Below are positions 15,117 to 60,823 of a stretch of DNA of 64,000 nucleotides, piece by piece. Source of the DNA: Pontiella desulfatans (GTDB lineage: Bacteria; Verrucomicrobiota; Kiritimatiellia; Kiritimatiellales; Pontiellaceae); assembly GCF_900890425.1 (NCBI RefSeq), contig NZ_CAAHFG010000001.1:2418001-2482000 (forward strand), written 5' to 3'. The notes below the pieces were generated by a model that saw only the letters and a list, made by a program, of their open reading frames with translations, made no database searches and was not told where the DNA came from. Position numbers and translations under genes: made by a program. The stretch's first letter is position 1, and every line of letters begins with the position of its first letter.

Positions 15117-16472
15117 CTAATAACTTAGCTTGCCGCCTCTTGATGGTTTCTGACGTTCGCTCTCCCACCACTCCCGGGGGCCTTCCTTTTCAATATCCGC
15201 CCAAAGCTTGAGGAGAATGCGTTTCATCTCCTCCGTCTTTTCGGGCATCTTGGTTGCCAGATCGTTTTCTTCCTTCCAATCCTTCTGGACTTCGTAGAGT
15301 TGGAACTTCGTCAGCGTCTCGTCGGCGATCATCTTCCAATCGCCGACCCGCATGGCAACCCGTTCATTCGGGCCGGAAACATGCGTGCGCCAGAACATGG
15401 GGATTTTGCGTTCAACCGGCTTGCCCTGCAATGCGGGAAGCATGTTGACGCCGTCGATCGTGCGATCCTTCGGCAACGGCAGGCCGGTGATGGCGAGCAC
15501 GGTGGAGAAGACATCGCTTCCGATCACCGGCACATCGCTGACGGAGCCGGGTTTGATGTTTCCGGGCCAGCGCGCCAACCCCGGAACGCGGATGCCGCCT
15601 TCGTATTCGCTGCGCTTGTTCCCGCGCAGACCGCCGCTCGAACCGCCGTATGCGGGAACCGGACCGTTGTCGGAAGAGAAATACACCAGGGTATCATCGC
15701 TCACCCCGGCCTGGTCGAGCGCATCGAGAATCATGCCAAGCCCATGGTCCATCTGGGTGATGTTCCCCATATACTTGCTGTTTTCATGCCCCTTGTAGAG
15801 CGCCTCGAAACGCGGATCGGTGGCGATCGGCGAATGCGGTTCATGAAACCAGACGGTCAGCGCAAACGGTTTTTTCGGATCGTGGAGATCCTTGAGCCAA
15901 TGCACGGCCTCCCCTGCCACCAGCGGGGCGGAATAACCTTGCAGCTCGCCGAGCGGTTCGCCGTTGCGGACAAAGTTGGCCGGGTTTTTGTGGCTGGGTT
16001 CGGCGTTGTTCTGGGTGTAGAACCAATAGTCGTAGCCATGCTCCCCGGGCTGGGGGAATTCCGGCTTGTTGAACTGGTTCTTCGAAAGCAGGTGCCATTT
16101 CCCGACGTGGCAGGTTTCGTAGCCAATGCCTTTCAACAGCTCCGGATAGGTGATTTCGCTGGCGCGGAGGTGCGCCTGGCCATTTCCGGAGAGATGGCGG
16201 TAGACCCCGTTGCGGTACGGCGTACGGCCGGTGAGGATGGCGGAGCGCGAAGGCGAACAAACACCGCAGGCGGAATAGCACTGGGTCAGCTTCACCCCTT
16301 GCGCCGCCAACCGGTCCATGTTCGGCGTCTGAATCAGCTCGTTGCCAAAGGTTCCGGAATCGCCCCAACCCATATCATCGGCAATCACCACAACAATATT
16401 CGGTTTCTTCGTCGCCGCATGGGTGACACCCCCCAGAAGCAAACATAATCCCAACCCTACAATCCGTTTCAT
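15117..16472 (-). CDS. S1-family sulfatase, first gene of the left operon
   Basis: 451 residues with a 20-residue signal peptide (ending GVTHAA). NIVVVIADDMGWGDSGTFG, formylglycine motif CSPSR (Cys at about 72), SAILTGRTP, HVGKWHL, VWFHEPHSPI and YFSSDNGPVPA are present. AAAGGA five bases before the ATG is a good ribosome binding site. No promoter was firmly identified, but this is the first gene after a 700-bp stretch of decayed sequence, and all ten genes downstream follow with gaps of 28 bp or less. The C-terminus is rich in W, E and K (EWWESERQKPSRGGK). It probably acts in the periplasm or outside the cell on a sulfated galactan or fucan. Confidence 0.92.
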   Translation of the reverse strand: MKRIVGLGLCLLLGGVTHAATKKPNIVVVIADDMGWGDSGTFGNELIQTPNMDRLAAQGVKLTQCYSACGVCSPSRSAILTGRTPYRNGVYRHLSGNGQAHLRASEITYPELLKGIGYETCHVGKWHLLSKNQFNKPEFPQPGEHGYDYWFYTQNNAEPSHKNPANFVRNGEPLGELQGYSAPLVAGEAVHWLKDLHDPKKPFALTVWFHEPHSPIATDPRFEALYKGHENSKYMGNITQMDHGLGMILDALDQAGVSDDTLVYFSSDNGPVPAYGGSSGGLRGNKRSEYEGGIRVPGLARWPGNIKPGSVSDVPVIGSDVFSTVLAITGLPLPKDRTIDGVNMLPALQGKPVERKIPMFWRTHVSGPNERVAMRVGDWKMIADETLTKFQLYEVQKDWKEENDLATKMPEKTEEMKRILLKLWADIEKEGPREWWESERQKPSRGGKLSY

Positions 16473-16676
16473 CTGAATCCTTTCATCTTATGCACAGCCC
16501 AATCACTTTTCGCATCACCATCCCGACCAACGCGTATCTTGGATGGATTCGCCTCCAAGTTAAAATCTTTATTCCACTCTTCTTCCGCCTCGGGACCTCC
16601 GTCTGGACAGGCTGGGCCCACTGCGGCTTCGTTGCGCTCCCCATTGGTGCCGGATTTTCCATTCCCAATAAAATTA
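16473..16676. other. Intergenic stretch, no gene seen
   Basis: About 200 bases between the first operon gene and the remnant gene upstream. Short frames exist on both strands, but none shows a fold motif, a ribosome binding site or similarity to anything else in the window. Confidence 0.6.
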
Positions 16677-17090
16677 TCACTGACGCTGCGATTCATTCAA
16701 CCAGCCGATCCGCCAAAAGCCTTGACCTTCGGATGCATCGACATAATCGCTGTATGGCGAAGCCGGAAGAAAGGGATCCCGGCTGTTGCTGTCCGCAAGG
16801 TTTGAAGTATTTCCAATACAGTACCCCAGCCCCGGCGTCCCGCTAAAATGCATCTAGACCTTGAAAGCCGGCTCATCTCCACCGCCGCCACCGCCGTTGC
16901 GTCCGACCACGAAACGGATCATGTCGTCTTCAGTCACGGTCACATGGGTGAGGTGGCATACCAAACGGTCGCATTATAGCCGGGGAAAATCGTTCCTTTT
17001 GAGTGCCAAAAATCGTAGAGGTCGCCGACCTTGATCACGTCGCTGGGATCAACAAACTCAAACCTAACCTATAAATCTGTTCTCCTTTCC
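16677..17090 (-). pseudogene. Hybrid remnant: GH117-like start joined to a modular sulfatase C-terminus
   Basis: Reading the minus strand from about 17060, one meets VDPSDVIKVGDLYDFWHS then GYNATVWYATS, the first blade of a GH117-like protein as at 14117-15088. The sequence then switches, after a stop, to LTHVTVTEDDMIRFVVG and, beyond another stop, to MHFSGTPGLGYCIG and EGQGFWRI. These match the end of the sulfatase at 20360-24436 (FSGTPGQGYCIEQTS, EEQGFWRIELRE). A purine-rich ribosome-binding-like stretch (AAAGGAGA) precedes it near 17090, and the operator-like palindrome at 17169-17186 lies at the normal distance. It looks like a former member of the regulon that lost its middle by recombination and then decayed. 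Confidence 0.8.
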
Positions 17091-17168
17091 CTAAAACCAC
17101 TCGTATAGAGAGCTTCAGTACACCTTTTACCAAACAAACAAAGTACCATTACATCCCCATTATACGCC

Positions 17169-17186
17169 ATAGCCTGAAAAGGGTAT
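17169..17186. promoter_or_regulatory. Operator-like palindrome, copy 1
   Basis: ATAGCCTGAAAAGGGTAT on the plus strand, one base away from the perfect palindrome ATACCCTGAAAAGGGTAT found at 38359 and 57979. It is about 80-100 bp upstream of the remnant gene at 16677-17090 and 28 bp beyond the stop of the modular sulfatase at 17214. It could also serve the whole left operon. Confidence 0.65.
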
Positions 17187-25566: not shown

Positions 25567-27825
25567 TTAGTTACTCAGCTTGTAGAAGAACTGGGTTTCG
25601 TCTCCGATGGAAATGGTAACCGGCGAAGGTGCGTTTGTTGCCACGCCCCAATTCGGGTACACTAGGTCGGCATTGGTCAGCACGTTGTAGGAGCCGCCAG
25701 TATCCCAAGACATGATGAGTGATCCGCCGGAAACGGAAGCGCTAATCACCGGAGGCTCCGTTGATCCAGCCGAAAATGCGGTCAGTGTCATTGCACCTAC
25801 GGTAATATGAGCAGCGGCACCAACACCGGTTGCTGAAATTACCAGATTGCCGCTGCCGTCCGTACCCAGACCGGTCAGATTTACATAACCAGCCCCGGCA
25901 GCACCGGTATTGGCGGTTTGGGCTGATTGTCCATCGGCACTCCAAAGAACATCGAAGTTTGCGTTGTCACGATCAAAGCCGGCGGAAAGGTCGTACACCA
26001 GCGAGTCATCCAAACCGGTGAAGGTGAAATACATAAAATCAACACCCGCCGTTAAAATCCTGCCGGAAGCATCGTTACAAATAAGGGCGTCAGCGAACAC
26101 CGACGCATTGGTGATCAGTGCTCCGTCACCATCCGTACCGAGTTCCCCTACGCCGCCTAAGCCATAATCCCAGGCAATTTGACCGGCATTCTGCAAGATG
26201 AATTCAACGCCTGACACGGGAGCATTCTCGATATCGACAAGTGAACTGTTCGTGATGGCGGCATCGGCAGCAACTCCAGGGGTCGTGTTGTTGCCACCAT
26301 ACGGACCCATTTGGTTAAAGACCGTTGCTCCTGCCGGAGTGGTTGATCCAAAGTCGATGCCAATAGTCCACTCCTTAGTCATCTCGGCGGCTTTATTAAA
26401 GATGACATCCACGGCCAGATCTGCGGTATTCGTTATGCCGGATCCGGTTTCGGTCCAAGAGATGACCACCGTAGCATCTGCAGTATCCCCATGAGCAGCC
26501 AGCGAACCGTCATTCGTATACGTCACGACGACCTCTTGAGTTGTTGTGCCCGAACTCAGAGTAAAGCTGTCCGGAGCAACGCTGAAACCATTCGTTGCCA
26601 CTATGGAAACAATTTCCACATCCGCAGAGATCGTACCTTCGATATAGGTTGCAATAACCGAACCGTTAGTGCTCGTGGCCGGATCTTCCAACGTCAGCGA
26701 GAGCGAAGTCGGAGCCACTGAAACACTACTGGGCTCATTAATGTAGGTTGCGTTTAACGCCGCTTCCGAAGTGTTGGTTACGCCTGAACCCGCTTCAGTC
26801 CAGGTGACCACCAGCGTGGAATTCGTGGACTCGCCGTTGGCAAGGCCGATGGACGTGTTGTCGAAGGTGACCGTGATGGCTTTATTCGTATTAGCCGTAC
26901 CCAGCAGCGTGCCGCTGACATTGGATGCACTGAATCCGGCATCCGCCACCGCTGAAATAAGTTCAACATTGCTCGCGGACAGGCCCTCAAGATACACGGC
27001 ATTAATGATGTTGTTGGTCGTCATTTCGGGGGCAACCACGTCAAACGAGAGGGAATCCTGATCCAGCTTGATTGCACCGCCAGGGAACGTGACCGCGGTG
27101 GTTTCATCAAAGGTCATCCCGGCAAGCGACGACCCCTGGGTCGCCAAACGCTGCTGGCCTTCAACGGAGAAGGTACCGCCCGATCCATCGGTGGTAATAT
27201 CGAAAAAGACCATGCCGACGCCATCACTGCCCGCGGGGAAGTCCTCCAGGTTGGTGACGGCCACCGCGGTTCCGCCACCGACCGACAGGCGTAGCCCGAT
27301 CGGCGACCAGCGACCATCCGTGGAGCCTTCATTCCCGGTCATCAGGCCAAGGCGGAACGTGCCCGGGGCGCCGCTGTCGATTGAAAAGGTTACGATCTCG
27401 GTCCAGTTGCTCGCACCGCTCCCAAGAGCAACGGCCATACCAGAGTTCCAATCCACCGTATCGGTGTTCGGCGGCGCGGTCGGGTCATCGGTTGGGGTAT
27501 AGTCGTATACGGCAGTCGAGGTAAAGTTGCTGCCGGCGTCAACACTGGTCACCCAGTCCGGTAGATCCGCAGTATGTACGGAGAAAGGCTGGTTGTTGAT
27601 CAGCTCGGAGCTGCCATTCCCGAAAAAGAAATAGCCGTGCGAGCCGTAGACATTATCCAAGTTGAGGTCGAAACTTTTTGGTTCTCCGGTTGAGCGGAAA
27701 CCTCGCGCTGCGGCATACTCTTCATCGAAGTTGTCGCCATCGCCCACCAGCCCGATCGTCGGTGCCGCGTGTGCTCCCGACGCAATGGCGATACTGCATA
27801 CTAGTGCCCATCCTGTTTTTTTCAT
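25567..27825 (-). CDS. Large secreted adhesin-like protein (modules A and B)
   Basis: 752 residues from the ATG at 27825, preceded by GGAGA and starting a clear signal peptide (MKKTGWALVCSIAIASGAHA). Order: module A (about 20-240, ending RLATQGSSLAGMTFD), two Ig-like repeats each with a GESTNSTLVV or GDTADATVVI strand and GSG(V/I)TNT, module B (about 480-680, opening WTIGIDFGSTTPAG), and a C-terminal domain with SYNVLTNADLVYPNWGV ending FFYKLSN. No catalytic motif was seen. Its first two thirds are nearly repeated in the protein at 35981-38257. The operator-like palindrome lies 104 bp upstream, and the PEP-CTERM gene follows after the double hairpin. A scaffold or glycan-binding role is inferred. 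Confidence 0.85.
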   Translation of the reverse strand: MKKTGWALVCSIAIASGAHAAPTIGLVGDGDNFDEEYAAARGFRSTGEPKSFDLNLDNVYGSHGYFFFGNGSSELINNQPFSVHTADLPDWVTSVDAGSNFTSTAVYDYTPTDDPTAPPNTDTVDWNSGMAVALGSGASNWTEIVTFSIDSGAPGTFRLGLMTGNEGSTDGRWSPIGLRLSVGGGTAVAVTNLEDFPAGSDGVGMVFFDITTDGSGGTFSVEGQQRLATQGSSLAGMTFDETTAVTFPGGAIKLDQDSLSFDVVAPEMTTNNIINAVYLEGLSASNVELISAVADAGFSASNVSGTLLGTANTNKAITVTFDNTSIGLANGESTNSTLVVTWTEAGSGVTNTSEAALNATYINEPSSVSVAPTSLSLTLEDPATSTNGSVIATYIEGTISADVEIVSIVATNGFSVAPDSFTLSSGTTTQEVVVTYTNDGSLAAHGDTADATVVISWTETGSGITNTADLAVDVIFNKAAEMTKEWTIGIDFGSTTPAGATVFNQMGPYGGNNTTPGVAADAAITNSSLVDIENAPVSGVEFILQNAGQIAWDYGLGGVGELGTDGDGALITNASVFADALICNDASGRILTAGVDFMYFTFTGLDDSLVYDLSAGFDRDNANFDVLWSADGQSAQTANTGAAGAGYVNLTGLGTDGSGNLVISATGVGAAAHITVGAMTLTAFSAGSTEPPVISASVSGGSLIMSWDTGGSYNVLTNADLVYPNWGVATNAPSPVTISIGDETQFFYKLSN

Positions 27826-27928: not shown

Positions 27929-27946
27929 ATCGCCTGAAAAGGGTAT
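27929..27946. promoter_or_regulatory. Operator-like palindrome, copy 2
   Basis: ATCGCCTGAAAAGGGTAT, 104 bp upstream of the start at 27825. The neighbouring TTTTTGCC is shared with the copy at 38359, so the similarity extends beyond the palindrome. Confidence 0.75.
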
Positions 27947-35980: not shown

Positions 35981-38257
35981 TTATTTGCCGAGCTTGTAGA
36001 ACAGCTGGGATTCGCTGCCGATGGCATTGGTCACCGGCGAAGATACGCCCGTTTCCGAAACGCCCCATTCCCCATAAGCGAGGTTGACATTGGTCAACAC
36101 GTTGTATGCGCGCCCGTCATCCCAGGACATGATGAGCGCCCCGTCGGAAACGGTAACACCACTGATCGGCGGGAGGGCCAGGCCATACACATCGCCATTC
36201 ACGATTACCTTGTCGAACAGGGTGGCTGAACTGAAACCATCGCTTCCGCCGTAGATGTAGAGGCGGAACTCGACCGCTCCATCGAGCTCCTTGAACTCGG
36301 CTGCGGACAGATCGACCACATTGCGGCAGCTGTCGCCGTCCCATGTTTGGATATCGGTCGTCTGCCCCGTCGCGATTTCCGCTCCGTTGGCAAATCCTCC
36401 CACGGACGAGAAGAGCGCCCAGCGCTCCGCTGAGGAGGCCAGCTGGTTGACACGCGAACGGAAGGTGAAGCTGATCAGATCCATCGCATAGCCATTGGTC
36501 GGCGTGACGGTGAAGACCATGTAGTCGGCGTTGGTTATCGCCAGAGGGAGATTGTCGGCGTTGTTCATCAGGGTGTATCCCAATGCGGAGCTTGCGCCGC
36601 CGAACTCAAAACCGTTCGCCGTTCCAAACAGGTTATATTCCGCATCAAGCTCGCTGTAGTAGCTGTTGCCGTTATCCACATTAACAACGCTGACAATGCC
36701 GGTTCCCACGCCAAAACCGCTGGCGGTGACATTGGCGTCCTGGACGGTGACATTCGTCGTGGCCGTGCCCGTTCCATCGTCAAAGTCATAACCAGCGATC
36801 ACGGTGGTGGAGATGGTTGGACTGTAATAGAAAACATCCACCGAACCATTGGCGGTGTTGGTTACGCCGGAACCGGCTTGAGTCCACGTAACGACCACAA
36901 CGGAATCCGCGGTATCCCCATGGTTTACCAGCGCACCGGTGTTGGTGTAGGTGACCAAAATGTCTTCGTCCGTATTGCCCGCACCCAAAACAAAGCTTGC
37001 CGGATCCACACTGAATCCGTTGGTCACCACCACCGAAACAATTTCAATATTGGCCGGGATGGTTCCCTCAATGTACGAGGCAACGATCGTGCCGTTGGTG
37101 CTGGTGTCCGGACTATTCAAGGTCAACGAGAGCGAAGCCGGCGTCAGCTCAAAGCTGTTGGGTTCATTGATATAGGTAACACTTAACGGAACACTGGAGG
37201 TGTTGCTTACACCGGATCCCGCCTCGCTCCAGACAACCACCAGCGTGGAGTTTGTGCTCTCCCCGTTGGCAAGACCAATACCGGTATTATCAAAGGTGAC
37301 CGTGATCTCTTCTTCCGTATCGCTGTTGCCCAGGATGGGATCGGTTATGGAAGCACTAAAGCCGGCACCGGCCAGCGCTGAAACGATGGTGATATCGTTC
37401 GAGGTGACCGCTCCGGCCATGTAGGTCGCCGTGATGGCGCCGTCGACACTCGTGTCGGGGGCATACAAGTCCAGCGAGAGCGAAGCTGGATTCAGCGCAA
37501 GACTTGCGCCGGGAGCGGCAACGACGGTATCAAACGTGATGCCGGCCAGGCTGGGGCCCTGGGTCGCCAGACGTTTCTGCCCTTCGATGGTAAACGTGCC
37601 TGAGGTTTCGCCATTCAAATCGATATCGAAAAAGACCCAGTTCGGAGCACCGTAGGGCGTGTTGTTCTCCAGTCCGGTCACCGCGTTGGTTACACCGCCG
37701 GAACTGATGCGCAAGCCGGTCGGATCCCAGCGTCCATTCGATTGTGCCTGTGTACCCGCAAACAGGCCGATTCGGAATTGTTGGGGGGCGCCGGCATCGA
37801 AGGTAAACGTCACCATTTCACCCCAGGTTCCAGCGCCTCCTGTGGCGGCCGAAACCATGGCACCGACGGTGCCCCAGTCGGCCACATCCGCGCTGATTGC
37901 ATTGGTAGGATTGTCCATCGGCCCCTGGCCATAACCCTGGGCGACACTGATGAAATTAGCTCCCTGGGCAAACGTGGCCCAACCCGCGCCAACCTGGGTG
38001 CGCTTCGTGAAGAGTTGGTTGTTTATTTCAGCCCCCCCATCTCCGAATACCATCAGGCCTTCCGTGCCATAGGCATCGTCTCCATCGACATCAAACGTTT
38101 TGGCTACCCCCGTCGAGCGATACGCATGCGCTTCGTTTCCCGCCCCATTACCGAGCAGGTCATAGCCGGTTCCGTCTCCGACCAAGTCGATTGTAACGGC
38201 TCCGTACGTCGCGGACAGCATGCCCAGCGCCAGAATCATTCCAGTAGTTTTTTTCAT
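35981..38257 (-). CDS. Large secreted adhesin-like protein (module A plus Ig-like repeats)
   Basis: 758 residues with an AGGAGA ribosome binding site and the signal peptide MKKTTGMILALGMLSATYGA. Order: module A (about 20-245, ending RLATQGPSLAGITFD), two Ig-like repeats (GLANGESTNSTLVV and NHGDTADSVVV strands), a beta-sandwich opening VIAGYDFDDGTGTATTN, and a C-terminal domain with AYNVLTNVNLAYGEWGV ending LFYKLGK. No catalytic motif. It is a paralogue of the protein at 25567-27825, but that one has module B where this one has the GYDFDD domain. The same GYDF domain type also occurs in the haem protein at 41653-45321. The operator-like palindrome lies 102 bp upstream. Confidence 0.85.
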   Translation of the reverse strand: MKKTTGMILALGMLSATYGAVTIDLVGDGTGYDLLGNGAGNEAHAYRSTGVAKTFDVDGDDAYGTEGLMVFGDGGAEINNQLFTKRTQVGAGWATFAQGANFISVAQGYGQGPMDNPTNAISADVADWGTVGAMVSAATGGAGTWGEMVTFTFDAGAPQQFRIGLFAGTQAQSNGRWDPTGLRISSGGVTNAVTGLENNTPYGAPNWVFFDIDLNGETSGTFTIEGQKRLATQGPSLAGITFDTVVAAPGASLALNPASLSLDLYAPDTSVDGAITATYMAGAVTSNDITIVSALAGAGFSASITDPILGNSDTEEEITVTFDNTGIGLANGESTNSTLVVVWSEAGSGVSNTSSVPLSVTYINEPNSFELTPASLSLTLNSPDTSTNGTIVASYIEGTIPANIEIVSVVVTNGFSVDPASFVLGAGNTDEDILVTYTNTGALVNHGDTADSVVVVTWTQAGSGVTNTANGSVDVFYYSPTISTTVIAGYDFDDGTGTATTNVTVQDANVTASGFGVGTGIVSVVNVDNGNSYYSELDAEYNLFGTANGFEFGGASSALGYTLMNNADNLPLAITNADYMVFTVTPTNGYAMDLISFTFRSRVNQLASSAERWALFSSVGGFANGAEIATGQTTDIQTWDGDSCRNVVDLSAAEFKELDGAVEFRLYIYGGSDGFSSATLFDKVIVNGDVYGLALPPISGVTVSDGALIMSWDDGRAYNVLTNVNLAYGEWGVSETGVSSPVTNAIGSESQLFYKLGK

Positions 38258-38358: not shown

Positions 38359-38376
38359 ATACCCTGAAAAGGGTAT
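38359..38376. promoter_or_regulatory. Operator-like palindrome, copy 3 (perfect)
   Basis: ATACCCTGAAAAGGGTAT, perfectly symmetric at the outer six bases on each side, 102 bp upstream of the start at 38257 and about 38 bp beyond the stop of the previous gene. It reads as TACCCTT-TT-CAGGGTA in the gene direction. Confidence 0.8.
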
Positions 38377-41503: not shown

Positions 41504-41518
41504 GCGACAGAAGATGTT

Positions 41519-41587: not shown

Positions 41588-41652
41588 ATTTCCTATGCTG
41601 TGAAACCGCGTTAGAAATTTTGTTTTCATAACATCCATCTTTTTTAAATCCG

Positions 41653-44600
41653 TTAAAGCGACTTTATGTATTCCACGAGGTCGTCGATCTGGGTTTCGGT
41701 CAATCCCGCCGTGCTTCCATGCGAAAAGACCTCGAGCACGTCGCGAATCGTTTGCGCGCGGCCGTCGTGCAGATAGGGCCCGGTGCGCCAGACCTCGATC
41801 AGGCTCGGCGTGTCGAACGGCCCCGCATCGATGGTCGTTCCCGTTCCAACATCGTGCAGCTCCTGGTCGGTTAAATAGTCGCCGCTGTGGCAACCGGTGC
41901 AACGGGCGTTAAAGATCGTCTCCCCCCGAACCGCCGCCGCGCTCAATCCGCCATCCACCAGATACGGGCTGGGCACGGGTTGCTGCGCCTTGAGGAATGC
42001 GTCGAGATAGAGGTCTTCATTGTTTTTCCATTTGATCATATGGCTGAACATGATGCCGGCCCGGACCGATGTCTCGGCGTTCGGGCGCACCCCCGTCCAG
42101 GTGGTCGGCGCCGTGTAGTGGGCCTGCAACAGGCTCTTGGCGTTTTTGGCATTGCCGAAGCCGTCGTTGAGCAAGTCCCAGTTGAGTCCGTCGTTGCGGC
42201 CGCCGGGATGGCAGCTGGTGCAGCTCTGCCACTGCTGGGCGGAAAGCGTGGCATCGTGGAACAGTTGCATCCCGAGCCGGACATCCGTCTGGGGCATCAC
42301 CCAGCCGATTTCGATCTCCTGCGCGGCATATTCCTGCCCGTCCGCCAGATCGGCAACGGAAAGCGAATCGCTGAAATAGTTCGCGGCATAGACCGTTGTT
42401 CCAACCACCGCCACGTCGCGCGGGCCGTTGCCCGGCAGCGGCAGGCGGCGGCGCAGTCCCGCCAGATAGGAAAGATCGTCGCAAACGTTTTTGGTGGCGG
42501 AGGAGAGCTTGGCCAGCAGCCCCGGCCAGTCGACCGCGCTCAGCTCGTGGGTTCCTGCGTGCGCAATGCAGAGCGTTCCGCCATCGGCCGTGAAGCCCGT
42601 CCCCCACGGGTTGGCGGCGCCCAGATCGAGGTCGTCGAGCTCCACCGTGTTGTAGAGCGTGTCGGACGCGAGGTCGATGATGCTCAAGGTGGAGGTATTC
42701 ACCCAACCGCGGAAAATCTGGTTGGCCGGAACGCGGTAGCGCCCGAGCGCATGGGCCACGACGGCATAGCCACCGTCCGGCGAAACCGCCACATCCCGCA
42801 GGCTGTGCGAGCCCGGCGGCAACACGATGCTGGCCGTAACCAGTCCGCTCGCCGTATCGATCACGCTGACGGAGGCCGCCACGCCGGTTTGGGTGGAGGG
42901 CTGGTGCGGAAGCAGATTGCCGACCACCAGCTTGGAGCCGTCGGGCGTGAGCGCCGCGTCGAACGGCTCGCGCAGCACGCCGATCCGATCCGCAACACTG
43001 CCCGTGGTGAGATCGACCACGGCAACGGTATTGAGGAACCGTTCGCAAATATAGAGGCGATTGCCGGTCGCCAGTACCGGAGAGCGCGGAGTATGGCCGA
43101 CCGGAATGGTTTGGGTCACCTGCATCGAGGCCGTATCGACCACATAGACCGCCCCATCGGAAACCCCGGCGGTGACGTAGAGCGTGGCTCCGTCCGACGA
43201 GAGTGCCAGGCCGGAAGGATGCTGCGGCAGATCAATCGAGCCCAGCCGCGTATTATTCGCCAGATCAACCACCCCGACACGGGCCGCAGTGGACTCAGCG
43301 ATATAGAGCAGGCCGTTGACGGCATCGGCCGCCAGCTCGGTCGGCGAAAGATAGAAATCGCGGTCATCCGAAAAGATTACGCCCCGGGCTGTTCCGCTTT
43401 CGATAACCGCACCCTCCGCCGAATCGATGGCGAAATAGAAATCCTCGTCGCCTTCGTCGAGCGCATCGCCCCAGATCGTGATGGCAATCTGCATTTGCGT
43501 TTCGCCCGGGAGGAAGGTCAGTGTATCGCCTTGGGCCTCATAGTCAGCCGAGCCGGCCAGCCCGTCCGCCGTGGAAAAGGTAAAAGAAATCGCTTCCGGA
43601 TAGGCGCGGGAAAGCCAAACCCTGAAGACGGCCAGCGATGATCCCGAATCGCCCTCAACCATCTGGGCAGGATCCACCGATATGCGCGGATAGGAGGGCG
43701 TGAAGCTTTGGAGGCCCGACCAGACGGTGCCATATTGGTTCGACGCGGCGCAGCGGTAGACATATTCCGTGTCCGTCGTCAGGTTGTCCACCTGCACCGA
43801 AAAATCGCCGGGGGAAAGCATGCCGAGATCGGCATTATGCGCCCACGCGCCCACGTTCGTACCGCCATCGGTTTCGCCCCAATAGGCCCAGACCTGCGTC
43901 GATGCGGCGCCTGTGCTGACGAGGGTACCGGTCAACGTTGCGGCGTCGGCAAGCAGGTTGGAAACACCGCTCAGGTTATCAACACCTGGAGGAACTCCTG
44001 CAATGGCGCGGCCATACAGCGTGATTTTATCGAGCGCCGCCAACGTGCTGGATGTCGAGGTCGTCCCCCGGCCCCAGGCATAGATGCGGAATTGCGTGGC
44101 CTCGGTCATGGTTTCCAACGCCGTGCCGGACAGATCCACCACCACCCCATCGTAGGTTCCCGTCAGGCCGACCACGTTGGTGATGATGACCGAACTGCCA
44201 ATCAGGTTGCCAGAAGCATCGGTCACAGCATATTCATCCACCGAATCCACATGTTTCTTGGTGACCTTAAAGGTGATGCTGGAAAGCTGAAATACGGCTC
44301 CAGCATCAGGAGTGACGGTGAACGAAATGTAATCATTTCCGGCAACCGCATCCTCGAAGCTCCCCGTAACGGCATCATCCACACCGATACCGACGCATCC
44401 GACCGTACCCGTGCCGCCAAAGGCCGAACCGGCGGCATCCTCCCCGGAGTTATCGCCGACCGTCGAGACGAAGGCGATGGCCATCGGAGACGTCAGCGGG
44501 CTAGCCGTCATATTGGCGGCAACCACCGTTGCATCACTCATATCCGCCGCATCGGAGTTAAAATCATAGCCAACCAGCATTCCCGCTGCGGCTTCCGGAT

Positions 44601-45321
44601 TCACGTCAAAGGTCACGCCGCTGATCGCGGTCCCCTGGCCCGCCAACCGGTTTTGCCCTTCGAGCGAAAAGGTTCCGGAGGTTTCGCCATTCAGGTCCAC
44701 ATCGAAAAAGGCCCATCCGGAAGTATTGTCGGGCGTATTCGGCAAACCGGTGATTTCGGCGGGGGCACCGCCGTCAACCGAAAGGCGGAGCCCGGTCGGA
44801 TCCCACCGGCCATCACTGCTGGTTGTTTGCGTGCCGGACATGATGCCAACTCGGAACTGCTGTGGCGTAGTGCTGTCGATGGTGAAAGTCAGCACCTCCG
44901 CCCAAGCCCCAACACCGCTACCCAGTGCTACGCCAATCCCGGCGAGGGCCCAATCGGCCACATCCGTCCCGCTCAGAGTGGGGTCGTCATAGGGGCCGTA
45001 GGCCGCCTGTTCACTAACGGAGCTAAACTGCGCCCCTTGCGCAAAGGTTGCCCACTCCGCGCCCGTCTGCGTGTGCTCCGACCAGCCAAGGCCATTCCCG
45101 GCACCCGCATTGTTTCCAAAAAAAAAGGTTCCGGCGCTACCGTATTCATCATTTCCGTCGGCATCGAACGATTTGCCGACACTCGTTGAGCGGAAGGCCA
45201 CCAAACCGGTTTCTTCATAGCCGGATCCATCGCCGACGACCGTAATATTGATTGCGGCGTTCGCAGCGCAGCCCATTAACCCGGCACAGATCGCCGCACG
45301 CTGCAGTTGTTTCAGTCTCAT
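41653..45321 (-). CDS. Large secreted YVTN-propeller cytochrome c peroxidase-like protein
   Basis: 1222 residues from the ATG at 45321, which has GAGGTGG upstream and starts a signal peptide ending GCAANAA. Order: module A (about 20-245), a GYDFNSDAADM-type beta-sandwich (about 245-445), a fibronectin-like domain (about 447-543), a Calx-beta-like domain (about 545-650; MVEGDSGSSLAVFRVWLS), a YVTN seven-bladed propeller (about 657-993; GALYVTAG-like repeats and VVDLTTGSV), and a di-haem cytochrome part (about 1010-1222) with CTSCH (about 1032) and CTGCH (about 1140), GPFDTPSLIEVWRTGPYLHD being typical of MauG/CcpA-type proteins. It ends after a helix with no FYRL domain. The operator-like palindrome lies 116 bp upstream. 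Confidence 0.85.
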   Translation of the reverse strand: MRLKQLQRAAICAGLMGCAANAAINITVVGDGSGYEETGLVAFRSTSVGKSFDADGNDEYGSAGTFFFGNNAGAGNGLGWSEHTQTGAEWATFAQGAQFSSVSEQAAYGPYDDPTLSGTDVADWALAGIGVALGSGVGAWAEVLTFTIDSTTPQQFRVGIMSGTQTTSSDGRWDPTGLRLSVDGGAPAEITGLPNTPDNTSGWAFFDVDLNGETSGTFSLEGQNRLAGQGTAISGVTFDVNPEAAAGMLVGYDFNSDAADMSDATVVAANMTASPLTSPMAIAFVSTVGDNSGEDAAGSAFGGTGTVGCVGIGVDDAVTGSFEDAVAGNDYISFTVTPDAGAVFQLSSITFKVTKKHVDSVDEYAVTDASGNLIGSSVIITNVVGLTGTYDGVVVDLSGTALETMTEATQFRIYAWGRGTTSTSSTLAALDKITLYGRAIAGVPPGVDNLSGVSNLLADAATLTGTLVSTGAASTQVWAYWGETDGGTNVGAWAHNADLGMLSPGDFSVQVDNLTTDTEYVYRCAASNQYGTVWSGLQSFTPSYPRISVDPAQMVEGDSGSSLAVFRVWLSRAYPEAISFTFSTADGLAGSADYEAQGDTLTFLPGETQMQIAITIWGDALDEGDEDFYFAIDSAEGAVIESGTARGVIFSDDRDFYLSPTELAADAVNGLLYIAESTAARVGVVDLANNTRLGSIDLPQHPSGLALSSDGATLYVTAGVSDGAVYVVDTASMQVTQTIPVGHTPRSPVLATGNRLYICERFLNTVAVVDLTTGSVADRIGVLREPFDAALTPDGSKLVVGNLLPHQPSTQTGVAASVSVIDTASGLVTASIVLPPGSHSLRDVAVSPDGGYAVVAHALGRYRVPANQIFRGWVNTSTLSIIDLASDTLYNTVELDDLDLGAANPWGTGFTADGGTLCIAHAGTHELSAVDWPGLLAKLSSATKNVCDDLSYLAGLRRRLPLPGNGPRDVAVVGTTVYAANYFSDSLSVADLADGQEYAAQEIEIGWVMPQTDVRLGMQLFHDATLSAQQWQSCTSCHPGGRNDGLNWDLLNDGFGNAKNAKSLLQAHYTAPTTWTGVRPNAETSVRAGIMFSHMIKWKNNEDLYLDAFLKAQQPVPSPYLVDGGLSAAAVRGETIFNARCTGCHSGDYLTDQELHDVGTGTTIDAGPFDTPSLIEVWRTGPYLHDGRAQTIRDVLEVFSHGSTAGLTETQIDDLVEYIKSL

Positions 45322-45436
45322 ATGGTTTCCACCTCTTGCTTCAAATACGGAAATGTTCATGGAGCGCACCGCCACAGCGAATCCACCCTTTTTCGGAACA
45401 TCGGTAAAAACATACCGCTTGGGGGAGAAACCCGGT

Positions 45437-45454
45437 ATCGCCGGAAAAGGGTAT
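45437..45454. promoter_or_regulatory. Operator-like palindrome, copy 4 (degenerate)
   Basis: ATCGCCGGAAAAGGGTAT, 116 bp upstream of the start at 45321. It keeps the GGGTAT half-site and the AT-x-CC edge, and it is the least symmetric of the five. Confidence 0.6.
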
Positions 45455-45604
45455 TTTGCCCCTTTTTTCCAAAGGCCGCGCCTTGTGCCATGAAAGTATA
45501 AAGCCATGTCGCTTTCACCTCGGAGACCCTGGCGCGGCACAATCGCAACCAAATTATCACAACCACTGATGATTCACACCAAAGCGGCTTCGCAGCAGAA
45601 AAAA

Positions 45605-48555: not shown

Positions 48556-48721
48556 AACTGCTCCTTTAGTTAGTGGTTTAACCCAAGGATAGTTTGCGCT
48601 CGACCAAGGCTTATTTCAAAGAACCTCTTTATGATTATCAGGCCGCCTAAATCGTCATTTTGGGCAAAGGGATCCTTTGATCTTTGTGTTTGATGAACTA
48701 AGGGTCATCCAAGAGGTTCCG

Positions 48722-48997
48722 AATGGCGTTGGAAAAGGCTGAGAATACAAGGGTTTGATGCAGAAGATAACGAGCGGTTTTGGGGCGCGCGGTGGTTGCC
48801 CGTTCGGCGGGGCAGGCGGGACGCCTGCGATACAGCAAGCGGCACATCGTTAGTGCGGTGCCATTTCCCGGCGGGAATGGCTTGTGCGGGAGCGGGGGCT
48901 TTCCTGCCCCCGCCGGGGACAGGAATGTCCCCGCTCCGTTTGAGCCGACCATCGATCCTGTCCATCCGGTGATTCGAAAAAGGGATCAGCCGATGAA
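48722..48997. other. Spacer between IS110 and the IS1595 array, with GC-rich hairpins
   Basis: No gene. At 48886-48937 two hairpins lie side by side: GCGGGGGC / GCCCCCGC and GGGGACAGGAATGTCCCC. These resemble dispersed PVC repeats. The rest shows no motif. Confidence 0.55.
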
Positions 48998-49005
48998 TTT
49001 TAAAA
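48998..49005. repeat. 8-bp target duplication TTTTAAAA, left copy
   Basis: The same eight bases recur at 50020-50027 and 51051-51058, flanking both IS1595-family elements. Eight bases is the duplication length known for this family. Confidence 0.85.
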
Positions 49006-50019: not shown

Positions 50020-50027
50020 TTTTAAAA
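50020..50027. repeat. 8-bp target duplication TTTTAAAA, shared middle copy
   Basis: It lies between elements A and B and serves as the right duplication of A and the left duplication of B. It forms the centre of a longer palindrome made of the two facing ends. Confidence 0.85.
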
Positions 50028-51050: not shown

Positions 51051-51058
51051 TTTTAAAA
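51051..51058. repeat. 8-bp target duplication TTTTAAAA, right copy
   Basis: The third copy of TTTTAAAA, bordering element B on the right. Confidence 0.85.
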
Positions 51059-51125
51059 TTTAAAAGGAAAAGGGATTCTCGGATTTAAGTTAATGCTGTT
51101 TAGGGCGTTGTTTTTTCATCTGCAC

Positions 51126-55680: not shown

Positions 55681-57858
55681 TTATTCGCTGAGCTTGTAGA
55701 ACAGCTGGGATTCGTCTCCGACGGTGATGGTAATCGGCGATGTACCCGAGTCCATTACACCCCAGTTCGGATACACGAGATCTTCATTGGTCAGCACGTT
55801 GAAGGATCCGCCGCCTTCCCACGACAGGACCACTTCACCCGAAACCATTTCGAGCCCGAAGTTTTCAATGACCACGGCCGGATTGGCGATAATCTGGAAG
55901 CCATTAATGGCCCCGCGTCCACCGGCGCCATCGGCATAAAGCTCCAGGGTGAAGCCGCTGGCCGTCAGGTTTGTGAACACGACATAGTTTGAATAATCCG
56001 TGCCGTCCTCCGAACTGTCCGCCTCGATGTAGGTTCCGGAGAACGTATTGGTCACTGGAGTGGCAGGATCGAAATCGTCTTCCGTAAACTTCGTAAACAC
56101 ATTGGTTACGCCTTCGGGAGACAAAGCGAATATGGACTGACGGTTCACGGTACTGGGGGGGCGCTTGTCGGAATCGGAGTAGACGATCACGCTATACCCG
56201 TTGCCGGTATAGGCCGCCCCCAACCCGCTGACCACCAAGGCTGCGGCATCGGCCGGGGAACCGTCGCCGCTGGGTCCATTCAACGCCAGGTAGGAGTTGA
56301 ACAGGTCGTCGTGGTTGGTGCCCGGCAGGTTGAGTTCCTCATCGGCCGAGGCGGCATTGGCGCAATAGCCAACGAACCAGGTGCTGCTGTTCGTCGAAGG
56401 TGCAAGCGTGGCCGCCCCTGCGGTTCCGTTGTTGTCCACCAGCTCGGTGGAGGGGAAGATGACTCCCGCCGTATTGTGCGCGGCGCCACTGCCCACATCG
56501 ATATTGTTCCAGCCCGTGTCGCTATTCAGGCCGGCGGTTTCCGCGCCCGTCAGCTGGTGCTCGTCCATATCGGCATCATCCCCGACATGGAAATTCACAC
56601 TGATGGTTGCCGTTCCTGAAACGGTGACCTCATTAACCGTAATCGAAATGGAAGCAGGATCACTGTCCGCAAAACCATCGTTAACCGTGAACGTAAAGCC
56701 GTCCGCCCCGGTATAGCCGGGCGTCGGGGTGTAGGTCAGCTCCGGTGCCGTACCGCTCAGCGTGCCGTTGGCCGGGGCCGTCACGCTATACGTCAGGTTG
56801 CTGGGTCCGTTGTCCGGATCAACTGCCGATAGTGTAATGGCGATATTCGTGTTGGCATACATGACATAGCCTTCCCCGGATGCAACAGGAACCTGGTTCG
56901 TCACGGTAATCGCTACCGTGGCCGGATCGCTGTCCAACTCCCCGTCGTTGACGGTGAAGGTAAAGCTATCGACGCCCTGATAACCGTTTGCCGGTGTGTA
57001 GGTCAGGTTCGGTGCCGTACCGGTCAGTGCGCCGACCAGTCCGGCCGAATCCACGCTATACGTCAGATTGCTACCCTCAAAATCCGCGCCGACCAACGTG
57101 ATGTTAGTCGTGGTATTGGGGAAGATGGATATATCCTGTCCCTCGGCGACGGGCGGCACATTCACCCCGGCAACCGGGGTGTAGGCCAGGGTGGAATCAT
57201 CCCAAAATCCGTTTCCACCCGCTATCACGGTGTCACCGATCTTGGTGTACACGCCGAAATACGGGTCGGTCCCGATGACCGGGCTGCCTTCATCAACCGC
57301 CCAGGTGAACGTCCATGTGGTGTACGCATCCGTCGCGGGCTCCGCCTCGGCCGGGGGCGTGTAGGTCACGCCGGAGACCGCATTGAACTCCGTATACATG
57401 TTGTTCTTGGAGTCGTTCGCGGCATTTTGGGCTACGGCTCCGGTCCCGGTTCCGGCACCCGTTAGCGTCGTGAAGAAACCGGCGACACACCCCCGGTTCG
57501 TGTTGATACCGGTGCTGAGGTCGTTCAGGCCGGCAAAGCCTCCATTGTCCCCGTTATTCCCGATGCGGGCGGAAAGCGTATAGGTCCCCGCCTGAATCGT
57601 TGGCGGCAGCGTGGTTCCGGCGATCGTCGAATAGGGAACGTGGAGCATGCCGGCGACGGTCGTACTATTGGCGACGCCCCATTGCTTGCCAGCTTCGGCA
57701 TCCAGACCGTTCTTGGTCGTCGTGTAGGCCCCCGCCCCGACCTGTGTGCCCACCTCCCCGGGATCGTTTCCGAGGGGCACGTTAACGGAAGCGGCCGTGG
57801 CCGAGCCTGCCGCCAGTGCGAATATTGCTACGATTGAACCTATGCGTTTCATCTCCAT
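55681..57858 (-). CDS. Large secreted adhesin-like protein (modules C and D)
   Basis: 725 residues from the ATG at 57858, with AAGGAG seven bases upstream; the signal peptide is MEMKRIGSIVAIFALAAGSA. Order: module C (about 22-230; TKNGLDAEAGKQWGVANS), two cadherin-like Ig repeats (about 235-405; NGYQGVDSFTFTVNDGELDS and a second copy), module D (about 416-655; TISVNFHVGDDADMDEHQL, then HDDLFNSYLALNG), and a C-terminal domain with SFNVLTNEDLVYPNWGV ending LFYKLSE. No catalytic motif. It is the enzyme-free counterpart of the sulfatase at 51565-55263. Its promoter region is shared, in the opposite direction, with the response-regulator gene, and the operator-like palindrome is 121 bp upstream. 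Confidence 0.86.
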   Translation of the reverse strand: MEMKRIGSIVAIFALAAGSATAASVNVPLGNDPGEVGTQVGAGAYTTTKNGLDAEAGKQWGVANSTTVAGMLHVPYSTIAGTTLPPTIQAGTYTLSARIGNNGDNGGFAGLNDLSTGINTNRGCVAGFFTTLTGAGTGTGAVAQNAANDSKNNMYTEFNAVSGVTYTPPAEAEPATDAYTTWTFTWAVDEGSPVIGTDPYFGVYTKIGDTVIAGGNGFWDDSTLAYTPVAGVNVPPVAEGQDISIFPNTTTNITLVGADFEGSNLTYSVDSAGLVGALTGTAPNLTYTPANGYQGVDSFTFTVNDGELDSDPATVAITVTNQVPVASGEGYVMYANTNIAITLSAVDPDNGPSNLTYSVTAPANGTLSGTAPELTYTPTPGYTGADGFTFTVNDGFADSDPASISITVNEVTVSGTATISVNFHVGDDADMDEHQLTGAETAGLNSDTGWNNIDVGSGAAHNTAGVIFPSTELVDNNGTAGAATLAPSTNSSTWFVGYCANAASADEELNLPGTNHDDLFNSYLALNGPSGDGSPADAAALVVSGLGAAYTGNGYSVIVYSDSDKRPPSTVNRQSIFALSPEGVTNVFTKFTEDDFDPATPVTNTFSGTYIEADSSEDGTDYSNYVVFTNLTASGFTLELYADGAGGRGAINGFQIIANPAVVIENFGLEMVSGEVVLSWEGGGSFNVLTNEDLVYPNWGVMDSGTSPITITVGDESQLFYKLSE

Positions 57859-57978
57859 TTTCCATCTCCTTATTTTGTTTTGGTCTTCCCCTCGTTCTCC
57901 ATGGTTGCCCGCCAAGTAGCTCGGCGACACCTGATTCCACGGAATGACAAAGTTTGACACGGCACCGAAAATGCGTCC

Positions 57979-57996
57979 ATACCCTGAAAAGGGTAT
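57979..57996. promoter_or_regulatory. Operator-like palindrome, copy 5 (perfect), divergent promoter
   Basis: ATACCCTGAAAAGGGTAT. It lies 121 bp from the start of the minus-strand gene at 57858 and 123 bp from the start of the response-regulator gene at 58119, almost exactly in the middle. This placement suggests joint control of the surface protein and the regulator itself. Confidence 0.82.
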
Positions 57997-58118
57997 ATTC
58001 CACAACTTTCCACTCTTTGTGAGAGTGTCATGGCAACGAATGGTGCGGGTGAGGAAAGCAACACCTGCCATCTCCACCCTTGACATCCGCACACCCATCC
58101 CCCTTAAAATGACCCACT

Positions 58119-58778
58119 ATGACTGAATCTGAAAAGCCTACGCCCCCCACCCGCATCTGCCTCATCGAAGATCACGCCGATTTTCGCGAGGCGTTGCGCG
58201 AAGCCCTTGAATCGACGGACCGCTTCGAAATCTGCGCCACCCTTTCCAACGCGGAGGACGCCTTGGAATACCTGAAGGATTCGGCGGCGCCCGATGTGCT
58301 CATTCTAGACCTGGGCCTGCCGGGCATGGACGGGATCGATGCCATCCCGCTCATCCGCAAGGCCGCCCCCGGCACGACCGTCCTGGTGCTTACCGTGTTC
58401 GACAACAAGGCCCGGGTCTTCCAGGCGCTGGGTGCAGGGGCATCGGGCTACCTGATCAAATCCGACGGGCTGCAGGCGATTGTGCAGGGCATCGTGGATG
58501 CCTGCCACGGCATCTCGCCGCTCAGCGCGGAAATTGCGAAGATGGTTTTCGACACGTTTTCGAGCTTCAAGCCGGCCTCGCCCGAAATCGAACTTTCGGA
58601 ACGCGAAGCCGAAGTCCTCAAGCAGCTCGCCGATGGCTTGAGCCGCCAGGAGGTGGCCGACGTGCTGTTCGTGAGCAAGCACACCGTGAGCACGCACATC
58701 CGGAACATCTATGAAAAACTGCAGGTCCACAATGTTTCGGGCGCCATCAGCAAGGCCTCTTCCATGGGAATCATCTGA
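58119..58778 (+). CDS. NarL/FixJ-family response regulator
   Basis: 219 residues. The receiver domain (about 12-130) has the acidic pair in IEDHAD, the phospho-acceptor Asp at about 64 in LILDLGLPGMDG, Thr at about 92 and Lys at about 114 (YLIKSDG). The LuxR-type helix-turn-helix (about 158-215) reads LSEREAEVLKQLADGLSRQE followed by VSKHTVSTHIRNIYEKL. Such regulators bind short inverted half-sites, often in a 7-2-7 arrangement, when phosphorylated. The gene overlaps the sensor kinase start by one base (TGATG), so the two are cotranscribed. The operator-like palindrome 123 bp upstream suggests autoregulation. No strong ribosome binding site was seen. Confidence 0.95.
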   Translation: MTESEKPTPPTRICLIEDHADFREALREALESTDRFEICATLSNAEDALEYLKDSAAPDVLILDLGLPGMDGIDAIPLIRKAAPGTTVLVLTVFDNKARVFQALGAGASGYLIKSDGLQAIVQGIVDACHGISPLSAEIAKMVFDTFSSFKPASPEIELSEREAEVLKQLADGLSRQEVADVLFVSKHTVSTHIRNIYEKLQVHNVSGAISKASSMGII

Positions 58779-60823
58779 TGCGGTTTCCCCGCACAGCATC
58801 TAACATCGAACACGGGAGCGCGGCATTCCGAAACAAAAGCCTGCACTATTCGATCGTTCTCATGCTGGCCGCGTCCGCGCAGGCGGACACGCTGGAGCAG
58901 AACCTTGCCCGGGGCTTCGTTAAGGGCTACAAGCAGAACGAAGCGCGGCTGGTCGCCATCGACGAGGAGCTTCATTCCCTGCCCCAACCCTATCTGCGGG
59001 AACCCACCGGAACCGGCGGGTTCCTTACCCACGAACAAAAATCCTCTACCAGCGAGGTGGTTCTGGCGTTTAGCTGGGAAAAACCGGTTGAGCTCGATGC
59101 CGTCGCCCTATTCCCCCTGCGCCTGTTCATGGACGAGGTCTACGGCGAAAACCTGTACTGGCCGGAGTCCATCACGATCGAGGCGGAAATCGACGGCCGG
59201 CAAAACCTCATTGCCCAGGGAACCGGAGGGCAGCCCCTCATCCGCCAGTCCCTTCCGGAGCTCATCGAATTCGCCCCGGTCTCCACCCGCAGGTTGACCA
59301 TCCGCTGCACCGACCTTCCGCAACATCCCCATGAAAAATGGCATGCCGCCGGGTTCGCCGAAATCTGCATCTTTTCGGGGGCCAACAACGTGGCCCCGCA
59401 GGCGAGTTGCAAGGCCTCGCACAGCCGGCAAGGCTACCATGTCCTGGCGCAGGAATTCCTGACCGATGCCCAAACCCCGCTGGGGCTCCCCGAATTAAGC
59501 AGCCACTCCAAAACCCATCCGTTCATCAAGAAGTTCGGATTCGGGCACAAGATTGTACCCGGATCCTATAAACTGACCTGCACCTACCCCCGGGAAATCC
59601 TGATCGACGCCGTACGGATCGACCCGGCCATCGAGCACTCCTACGGACAAAGCTTCCCGGTGCGCTTTACCATCGACCTGCTCGACGCCCAGGGGCAAGT
59701 CGTTCAATCGGACACCACCTACGAAACCTTCCCGATGCGCAAACCTGGCCTGAACCCTCATTTTTCCCGGTTCCCCGAGACAAAGGCCCAGGCGGTGCGG
59801 CTGACCGTCTACGAAGCATCGCAACCCATCCCCGAGGCCGCGCCGGCCATCGCGTTCAGCGAAATCTCGGCACAGCACAAGGGGGTGGAATCGGAACGCG
59901 CAACCCTCTTCGAAGAACGGTATCGCGGAAAAACGATCCGCCTCGTGACGGAAGACCCGACGGACACGAAGGCCAAACTGGCACTTTCTCCCGCCAACGA
60001 CGGGCTGACGCACTCGGGACAGGTTCTTCCGCTGCGTCAGTGGATCGAAGGACTCGTCCGCCGCCAGCAGCTGATGGAAGAGCAGATGATCCTGCGGCAG
60101 CAACAGGGAAAAACCGTGTCGGATATCGCCAAAACGCTCATCTATGGAAGCCTCACCCTGCTGCTGCTGGTGATCGGAAGCGCGGCATTTCTCATCGTTC
60201 GCAACCGCATCCGCATGCGCGGGGAAATCCGATCCACCCGGGCAAGAATCGCCAGCGACCTGCACGACGACGTCGGCAGCAACCTCGGCACCATCATCCT
60301 TCATGTCGAAAAACTGGAGGAACAGATTAACACGGCCCCGGAACGGAAACGGCTGAAAGCCATCTACCGGCTCACCCGCGAAAGCGTCTTCGGCCTGAGG
60401 GAGGTGCTCAGCACCACGGCACCGGAAGTCGGACGCACGCAGAACCTCGTCGCCTACATGGATGAACTCGCGGGCCTCGTCCTGGGAAAAACCGACTACA
60501 CCTTCGCGTCCGGCCCCGCCATCGGCGAAGCCCTGCTGGAGCAAACGTTGCGCAAGGGCATCCTGCTCTTCTACAAGGAAGCGCTCTACAACGCCAAACG
60601 GCACTCGGCGTGCAGCCAGGTCGAGATTTCCATTCGGCTCCGCGACGGGAACATTATTCTCCGGATCAAGGACAACGGCAAAGGCATCGACCAAGACGCG
60701 CTGAAGCAGCCCCGCACCCTGCGCACGCTCAAGCAGCGCGCCGACTGGCTCCATGCCCACCTGGAAATCGAATCAGCCCCCGGCGCCGGAACCCAGCTCA
60801 TCCTCTCCATTCCCCAGGAATAA
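58778..60823 (+). CDS. Sensor histidine kinase with carbohydrate-binding-like periplasmic half
   Basis: 681 residues. After a signal/anchor segment (about 20-37), the extracytoplasmic part (about 38-450) looks like two discoidin (F5/8 type C)-like beta-sandwiches: one with VVLAFSWEKPVELDAVALFP, YWPESITIEAEIDG and RRLTIRCTDLP, another with YPREILIDAVRIDPA and VRFTIDLLDAQGQVV. One transmembrane helix (about 454-475) precedes the HisKA_3 box, RARIASDLHDDVGSNLG, with the phospho-accepting His at about 496. The ATPase domain has the N box EALYNAKRHS and the G box DNGKGID. There is no PAS or HAMP domain. Direct sensing of an oligosaccharide in the periplasm is inferred from the sensor type and neighbourhood. 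The partner regulator is immediately upstream. Confidence 0.92.
   Translation: MRFPRTASNIEHGSAAFRNKSLHYSIVLMLAASAQADTLEQNLARGFVKGYKQNEARLVAIDEELHSLPQPYLREPTGTGGFLTHEQKSSTSEVVLAFSWEKPVELDAVALFPLRLFMDEVYGENLYWPESITIEAEIDGRQNLIAQGTGGQPLIRQSLPELIEFAPVSTRRLTIRCTDLPQHPHEKWHAAGFAEICIFSGANNVAPQASCKASHSRQGYHVLAQEFLTDAQTPLGLPELSSHSKTHPFIKKFGFGHKIVPGSYKLTCTYPREILIDAVRIDPAIEHSYGQSFPVRFTIDLLDAQGQVVQSDTTYETFPMRKPGLNPHFSRFPETKAQAVRLTVYEASQPIPEAAPAIAFSEISAQHKGVESERATLFEERYRGKTIRLVTEDPTDTKAKLALSPANDGLTHSGQVLPLRQWIEGLVRRQQLMEEQMILRQQQGKTVSDIAKTLIYGSLTLLLLVIGSAAFLIVRNRIRMRGEIRSTRARIASDLHDDVGSNLGTIILHVEKLEEQINTAPERKRLKAIYRLTRESVFGLREVLSTTAPEVGRTQNLVAYMDELAGLVLGKTDYTFASGPAIGEALLEQTLRKGILLFYKEALYNAKRHSACSQVEISIRLRDGNIILRIKDNGKGIDQDALKQPRTLRTLKQRADWLHAHLEIESAPGAGTQLILSIPQE

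Follow-up and report, generated by a model that had tools for sequence, protein, structure and literature searches.

An 18-base-pair (bp) motif recurs at five places in a 64,000-nucleotide stretch of DNA from the marine bacterium Pontiella desulfatans (hereafter the window), in a sulfatase locus of very large size, and it is very probably the operator of a two-component pair encoded at 58119-60823, which would activate a regulon of exported sulfatases and glycosidases. The pair consists of a response regulator, which on comparative evidence is the best candidate binder of the motif, and a sensor kinase. Sequence comparison establishes the sites, their orientation, their spacing to the -10 element, the genes downstream, and the co-occurrence and neighbourhood of the motif with the pair. 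The genes of the pair, the copies of the motif and two putative promoter elements are as follows.

58119..58778, plus strand: NarL/FixJ-type response regulator (receiver and GerE helix-turn-helix, HTH), proposed binder
58778..60823, plus strand: the regulator's partner, a membrane sensor kinase with a periplasmic region, a transmembrane segment, HisKA_3 and HATPase_c
57979..57996, minus strand: candidate operator ATACCCTTTTCAGGGTAT, a perfect dyad that separates the gene of a cadherin/Ig-domain secreted protein from the divergent regulator gene
45437..45454, minus strand: candidate operator ATACCCTTTTCCGGCGAT, the form that occurs most often, before the gene of a Calx-beta/MauG/cytochrome-c protein, with GGTA at offset 21
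45409..45416, minus strand: putative -10 region GGTATGTT of the 45437 promoter, placed by the fixed spacing over 28 sites
38359..38376, minus strand: candidate operator ATACCCTTTTCAGGGTAT, a perfect dyad, 101 bp before the gene of a secreted protein of unknown family
27929..27946, minus strand: candidate operator ATACCCTTTTCAGGCGAT, 103 bp before the gene of a secreted protein
17169..17186, minus strand: candidate operator ATACCCTTTTCAGGCTAT, followed downstream first by a decayed GH43-like copy and next by a sulfatase/GH43 operon
17140..17148, minus strand: putative extended -10 TGGTACTTT of the 17169 promoter

The sequence-only reading that first drew attention to the motif had placed it at 17169, 27929, 38359, 45437 and 57979. 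All five copies were recovered there with 0-3 mismatches to the motif as first noted (none at 38359 and 57979, one at 17169, two at 27929 and three at 45437), and 0.00 copies were expected from 100 dinucleotide shuffles. Read on the minus strand, all five face genes of the minus strand. Counted to the signal-peptide start codons, the gap from site to ATG is 103 bp at 27929, 101 bp at 38359, 115 bp at 45437 and 120 bp at 57979. This means that the earlier figure of 102-121 bp before four starts becomes 101-120 bp, with all four starts belonging to secreted-protein genes. On the other side of the 57979 site, the ATG of the regulator lies 122 bp away, and the NarL-family regulator reported beside this copy does carry receiver and GerE domains. 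By its position adjoining the regulator gene, 57979 is the best supported operator. The 17169 site faces a decayed GH43/LamG-like copy, followed by a sulfatase operon, and has no adjacent start. It had also been stated that the sites never lie inside a gene, and this holds when realistic gene starts are used, all five sites then being intergenic. The mechanical open reading frames at 55681-58098 and 41653-45552 overlap sites because they run upstream of the signal-peptide starts at 57858 and 45321.

Statements about the whole genome (8,658,305 bases) rest on pattern searches; the window occupies 2,418,001-2,482,000 of contig 1. If one mismatch to the refined motif is allowed, nine copies are found genome-wide, four of them outside the window, all on one strand of contig 1 between 2,170,817 and 2,475,996 (306 kilobases, kb). 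A genome-wide scan had been proposed as a check, and in this form it yields matches that cluster in the 306 kb, mostly before secreted-protein genes. The multi-site regulon that had been envisaged over 40 kb is supported, and its extent grows to at least 306 kb as judged from the nine genomic copies.

Over 28 homologous sites in three species, namely P. desulfatans (G000), Pontiellaceae bacterium B1224 (G001) and Pontiellaceae bacterium B12227 (G016), the consensus is ATACCCTTTTC[CA]GG[CG][GT]AT. The usual form is directional, ATACCCTTTTC[CA]GGCGAT, and the most frequent single sequence is ATACCCTTTTCCGGCGAT. The palindrome TACCCTT-TT-CAGGGTA, with its 7-2-7 layout, describes two of the five window sites, which are also the two perfect palindromes among the nine genomic copies; the other three window sites are imperfect. 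In the commonest form, the arms TACCCTT and TCGCCGG are symmetric at 4 of 7 arm positions. The arms are swapped between species, reading ATACCC..GGGTAT in Pontiella and ATCGCC..GGCGAT in Pelagicoccus, with mixtures between. Because the arms exchange across species, the site nonetheless appears to be a dyad, and its sequence suggests an imperfect dyad of the kind bound by a dimer.

Repeats dispersed in this way could also be remnants of a mobile repeat without a regulatory role, and insertion sequence (IS) elements are indeed present in the same region. However, only about 20 bp and the spaced -10 are conserved, and the flanks are unrelated between copies. Moreover, each copy is oriented to suit the gene that follows it, and the motif is retained before related genes in different species, eight groups of such genes having it in two or more species. 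An origin as inert mobile repeats can hardly be credited.

The position of the motif relative to the promoter points to a role in activation. The extended -10 pattern TGnTA starts 19-21 bp past the motif in 18 of the 28 copies; counted at offsets 18-21, the shuffle mean is 0.83, and none of 5000 shuffles gave a count as high; the looser GnTA fits the spacing in 21 of 28. The three Pontiellaceae carriers have 6, 8 and 7 instances of the composite pattern, defined as the motif, 18-21 bp and GnTA; Pelagicoccus has 4, of which one lies away from its motif clusters. The pattern occurs once in all 26 other family genomes, and the reversed-pattern controls give 0. The fixed distance between activator site and -10 that defines class-II activation is present at 18 of 28 sites and is specific to the carriers. 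When the T of the -10 hexamer is taken as -12, the dyad centre falls near -43.5, in the place of the -35 box, a position that is typical of class-II activation. From this geometry, activation is the predicted mode of action.

It has to be considered whether the motif is itself part of a promoter, acting as the -35-like element of an alternative sigma factor of the extracytoplasmic function (ECF) type, with motif and TGnTA together forming the promoter. The motif is directional and is locked to a -10-like element, as such a promoter would be. The -35 box of ECF promoters is about 7 bp long, however, and their spacer is 16-17 bp, so that 18 conserved bases and a further 19-21 bp to a housekeeping-type extended -10 are too long. 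In addition, the symmetric exchange of arms (ATACCC..GGGTAT, ATCGCC..GGCGAT and TCACAT..ATGTGA, the last from the genome G205 described below) is as expected for a dimer. The ECF-type promoter was rejected on length and spacing, and this explanation is very unlikely.

A further alternative is that the regulator binds the sites but mainly represses, or that the sites are RNA hairpins or terminators. Perfect dyads could fold in RNA, and NarL represses at some promoters (PMC4549865). Against this, complementarity of the arms is not kept (4/7 in the commonest form), and each copy points at a gene or promoter that lies a fixed distance downstream. Class-II activators typically act from a centre near -43.5 in the place of the -35 box, although a bound protein could also repress from there by occlusion. 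Repression or an RNA function is improbable on this evidence. An RNA element or terminator was rejected, since the sites have no Rfam match and arm complementarity is not kept.

The regulator contains Response_reg (E 1.8e-23) and GerE (E 3.2e-18) domains, both above the curated cut-off, and its matches in the PDB are NarL (1a04, E 1.6e-22), VraR and ChrA. Adjacency alone is weak evidence for its binding the motif, because about 30 NarL-like paralogues exist in the genome, four of them within the 300-kb stretch that holds the motif (2.17-2.48 Mb). The idea that one two-component system controls the sites is supported by comparative tests, namely a phyletic match and genomes picked by their kinase, with a regulon wider than had been supposed. 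Among 388 genomes of the phylum, regulator orthologues at least 80% identical are found only in G000, G001 and G016, the next paralogues being at most 46% identical, and exact motifs are confined to the same three species. In each of these carriers a motif copy and the regulator gene face away from each other, at a distance of 122 bp in P. desulfatans, about 480 bp in B12227 and about 620 bp in B1224.

Two further genomes, Pelagicoccus sp. SDUM812005 and JB025, were picked by kinase homology alone and lie outside the motif training set. Their regulators are 82% and 71% identical, respectively, and their matrix scores (22.7 for SDUM812005 and 20.1 for JB025) are the best non-training matches among 80 loci, the next being 15.3. 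The motifs in these two genomes stand beside the pair, at distances of 57 bp (to the regulator start) and about 440 bp (to the kinase start). In Pelagicoccus there are six copies in 75 kb, the genes downstream include sulfatases, and TGnTA or GnTA is found at the same spacing in most. This test is the strongest of five for the pair. A motif copy adjoins the 58119-60823 pair in five carriers. Among the regulators seen, none but this pair has close matches across the loci of all six relatives.

In a locus of similar kind in the more distant genome G205 (regulator 60%, kinase 40% identical), the dyad TCACATYTTCATGYGAT, with arms TCACAT..ATGTGA, occurs in six upstream regions in the same 18-bp frame and at the same -10 spacing. 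The recognition helix there reads TVDSHIRN, compared to TVSTHIRN here. The original motif has no good match under the matrix in G205, G409, G336 or G248, and no diverged dyad was found in G336 or G248. Separately, a candidate diverged operator TCACATGTTTACGTGA is located in G409, an Opitutales metagenome-assembled genome, at C47:24003, with TGATA at the expected spacing and about 200 bp before the regulator orthologue.

Several points weigh against an activating operator of this pair. At 27929, 38359 and 57979, which are three of the five sites in the window, no -10 box stands at the expected place, the 57979 copy having no clear TGnTA downstream, and within the window the -10 is clear only at 17169 and 45437. 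One arm may do most of the work, because the commonest form is only weakly symmetric. A loose threshold in Pelagicoccus gives 12 matches compared to 8 for the reversed control, so that single weak sites there may be due to chance. The three carriers of exact motifs are close relatives and therefore do not represent three independent events; the phyletic match and the G205 test are not fully independent of shared descent. Only some genes of the compared loci were screened for HTH domains, three other NarL-type pairs lie within the same 300-kb stretch, and any regulator carried along with the locus would co-occur too.

These last points favor the possibility that another regulator travelling with the locus, from one of the other three NarL-type pairs in 2.17-2.48 Mb or encoded elsewhere in the genome with its roughly 30 NarL-like regulators, binds the sites and that the adjacent pair controls something else, since transfer of the whole locus would make the adjacent pair co-occur as well. 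However, the other three pairs match at 53-57% in B12227, 39-42% in B1224 and 37-43% in Pelagicoccus/JB025, compared to 71-82% for the 58119 pair, and it is the latter that a motif copy adjoins in the five carriers. Binding by another regulator is accordingly unlikely.

The partner kinase may be a sensor of sugars. HisKA_3 and HATPase_c are present in all five of its orthologues, and the catalytic domain has the fold of VraS (4gt8, Z 16.9, 125 aligned, 2.4 Å) and DesK (5iuj, Z 15.8, 125 aligned, 2.5 Å). The model of the full kinase has a predicted local distance difference test score (pLDDT) of 62.5, and its catalytic domain filled the list of structural matches. Because this model was of modest confidence and catalytic matches dominated, the sensor region was modelled alone. 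No Pfam match to the periplasmic region, roughly residues 36-420, was found at E up to 1. Its model, built from seven sequences, has two β-sandwich domains that appear to be tandem CBM32-like. At low-to-middling confidence (pLDDT 60.6), the first domain is closest to CBM32 (4lqr, Z 11.1, 121 aligned, 2.9 Å) and the second resembles a fucose-binding-type lectin (lectinolysin, 3lek, Z 9.3, 106 aligned, 2.8 Å).

The predicted targets in the window, and the genes following the 17169 site, are listed here.

55681..57858, minus strand: secreted protein with Big_9/cadherin-like domains, predicted target
41653..45321, minus strand: secreted protein with Calx-beta, di-haem peroxidase (MauG-like) and cytochrome c, predicted target
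35981..38257, minus strand: secreted protein with no Pfam match, predicted target; relatives in B1224 also have an upstream motif
25567..27825, minus strand: secreted protein with no Pfam match above the cut-off, predicted target; relatives in B1224 and B12227 also have an upstream motif
15117..16472, minus strand: sulfatase, the first intact gene downstream of the 17169 candidate operator
16473..17150, minus strand: decayed sequence made up of an 82% identical fragment of a GH43-like gene and of a tail like that of the 20360-24436 product, between the intact 17169 site and the sulfatase operon

Counterparts of the 17169 site in B1224 (C66:68379) and B12227 (C124:13207) precede intact GH43 genes, and the B12227 orthologue of the 15117..16472 sulfatase is directly preceded by a degenerate motif copy with TGATA at the right spacing. 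A motif of the 45437 type also precedes orthologues of the Calx-beta/MauG/cytochrome-c protein in three other genomes. In P. desulfatans and its relatives, the first genes downstream of the motif mostly encode proteins with signal-peptide-like starts. The products include sulfatases, an alpha-L-fucosidase (GH29), GH36, GH43 and GH97 enzymes, a GHL15 protein and LamG proteins, as well as Ig (Big_9) and cadherin-like proteins and the Calx-beta/MauG/cytochrome-c protein. The earlier description of a surface-protein regulon is right in that the proteins are exported, but the regulon consists chiefly of sulfatases and glycosidases along with other exported proteins. This set of targets agrees with the growth of Pontiella on fucoidan, carrageenan and chondroitin sulfate (PMC7356697), and sulfated algal polysaccharides are the presumed substrate of the regulon.

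A large protein at 38414-41902 (minus strand), which adjoins the MauG/cytochrome-c target, contains HZS_alpha (hydrazine synthase alpha middle domain, E 6.3e-32) and is 86-88% identical in B1224 and B12227.

In the proposed mechanism, the kinase would use its two periplasmic sugar-binding-like domains to sense a sugar, a sulfated algal polysaccharide being the probable source of the fragment, and would then phosphorylate the NarL-type regulator. A dimer of the regulator would bind the 18-bp inverted repeat, in which arms of the form ATMSCC (ATACCC, ATCGCC and mixtures) surround TTTTCC or TTTTCA. The bound dimer, centred near -43.5 and overlapping the place of the -35 box, would recruit RNA polymerase to the TGnTA extended -10 promoter rather than exclude it. 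Exported sulfatases and glycosidases, and proteins that bind carbohydrate or belong to the surface, would in this way be switched on as one regulon over about 300 kb.

One of the closest known parallels is NarL of E. coli, which belongs to the same response-regulator family as the 58119-58778 product. NarL sites are inverted heptamers separated by 2 bp, and an engineered example, TACCCCTAAAGGGGTA, resembles the TACCCTTTTCAGGGTA of the perfect dyad copies here (PMC4549865). NarL activates yeaR from a site at -38 to -47 and napF from one at -40 to -49 (PMC4549865), the same promoter place as that of the dyads centred near -43.5. The signal, kinase type and gene set are different, however, and most sites here have mixed arms (ATACCC/ATCGCC). 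The recognition helix is SThiRN here, compared to KVhvKH in NarL. DesK/DesR and VraS/VraR share the kinase catalytic fold and regulator type of this pair, but their sensor regions are membrane-embedded or short, in contrast to the large periplasmic CBM32-like sensor predicted here, and their regulons are unrelated.

In Bacteroidota, hybrid two-component regulators serve as membrane sensors of glycan fragments and control nearby degradative genes in polysaccharide utilization loci. The Pontiella system would resemble them in having a glycan-type membrane sensor near degradative genes. Unlike the hybrids, which hold sensor, kinase, receiver and AraC output in one protein, it has separate sensor and regulator proteins encoded by two genes, a HisKA_3 kinase, and a GerE/LuxR-type output. 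In Pontiella agarivorans, genes for kinases (HisKA_3, HATPase_c) and regulators have been noted in the neighbourhood of sulfatase and glycosidase genes, and substrate sensing was suggested (PMC10880615). The passages searched give no binding site, regulon or regulator assignment, and the words "motif" and "promoter" are absent from its text (PMC10880615).

Other repeats and mobile elements were also observed. Three transposase genes, one of the IS110 family and two IS1595-like, lie in a row at 47524-51060 and interrupt the sulfatase cluster; the IS1595-like genes are near copies of a CCCCTATTTTAAAATAGGGG-like repeat. At 46049-46212 (minus strand) there is a group II intron D1-D4-3 match of 122.9 bits. 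In the same B1224 loci (L071-L087), 9 segments before or between genes carry a second dyad, TTCCAATNATTGGAA, which may be a hairpin or serve a different regulator as its operator. Around several gene starts of P. desulfatans there are short repeats, CGATTTTT..TGAAGGT and AGGTGGAGATGACCGAGA, on contig 1 near 2417607, 2480224 (window 62224) and 2497999, and these may mark another regulon or repeat family.

Systems of this kind are known, but this regulator, its binding motif and the genes under its predicted control do not appear to have been described before. For the Pontiella sulfatase loci, neither a regulator nor an operator was found in the open-access literature. Pontiella species are fucoidan degraders with the highest sulfatase counts reported for described microbes (521 and 480), and the same paper states that the enzyme pathway lacks a model (PMC7356697). 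A regulator, an operator and a target list would make it possible to ask which of the hundreds of sulfatases act together on one polysaccharide, and the same operator readout extends to Pelagicoccus and Opitutales relatives.

The ATACCC arms go with TVST/TINT helices and the TCACAT arms with T[VI]DS helices. It is quite possible, if somewhat short of an even chance, that kinase, regulator, operator and sulfatase locus form a self-contained module that moved between distant Verrucomicrobiota (Pontiellaceae, Pelagicoccus and other lineages), and that the operator changed in concert with the recognition helix in those lineages that are more distant. The case for a mobile module is fair. If it is true, fucoidan-type degradation in the genomes that hold the record for sulfatases would be run by one transplantable switch, and its operators could be read to assign the target genes of that switch.

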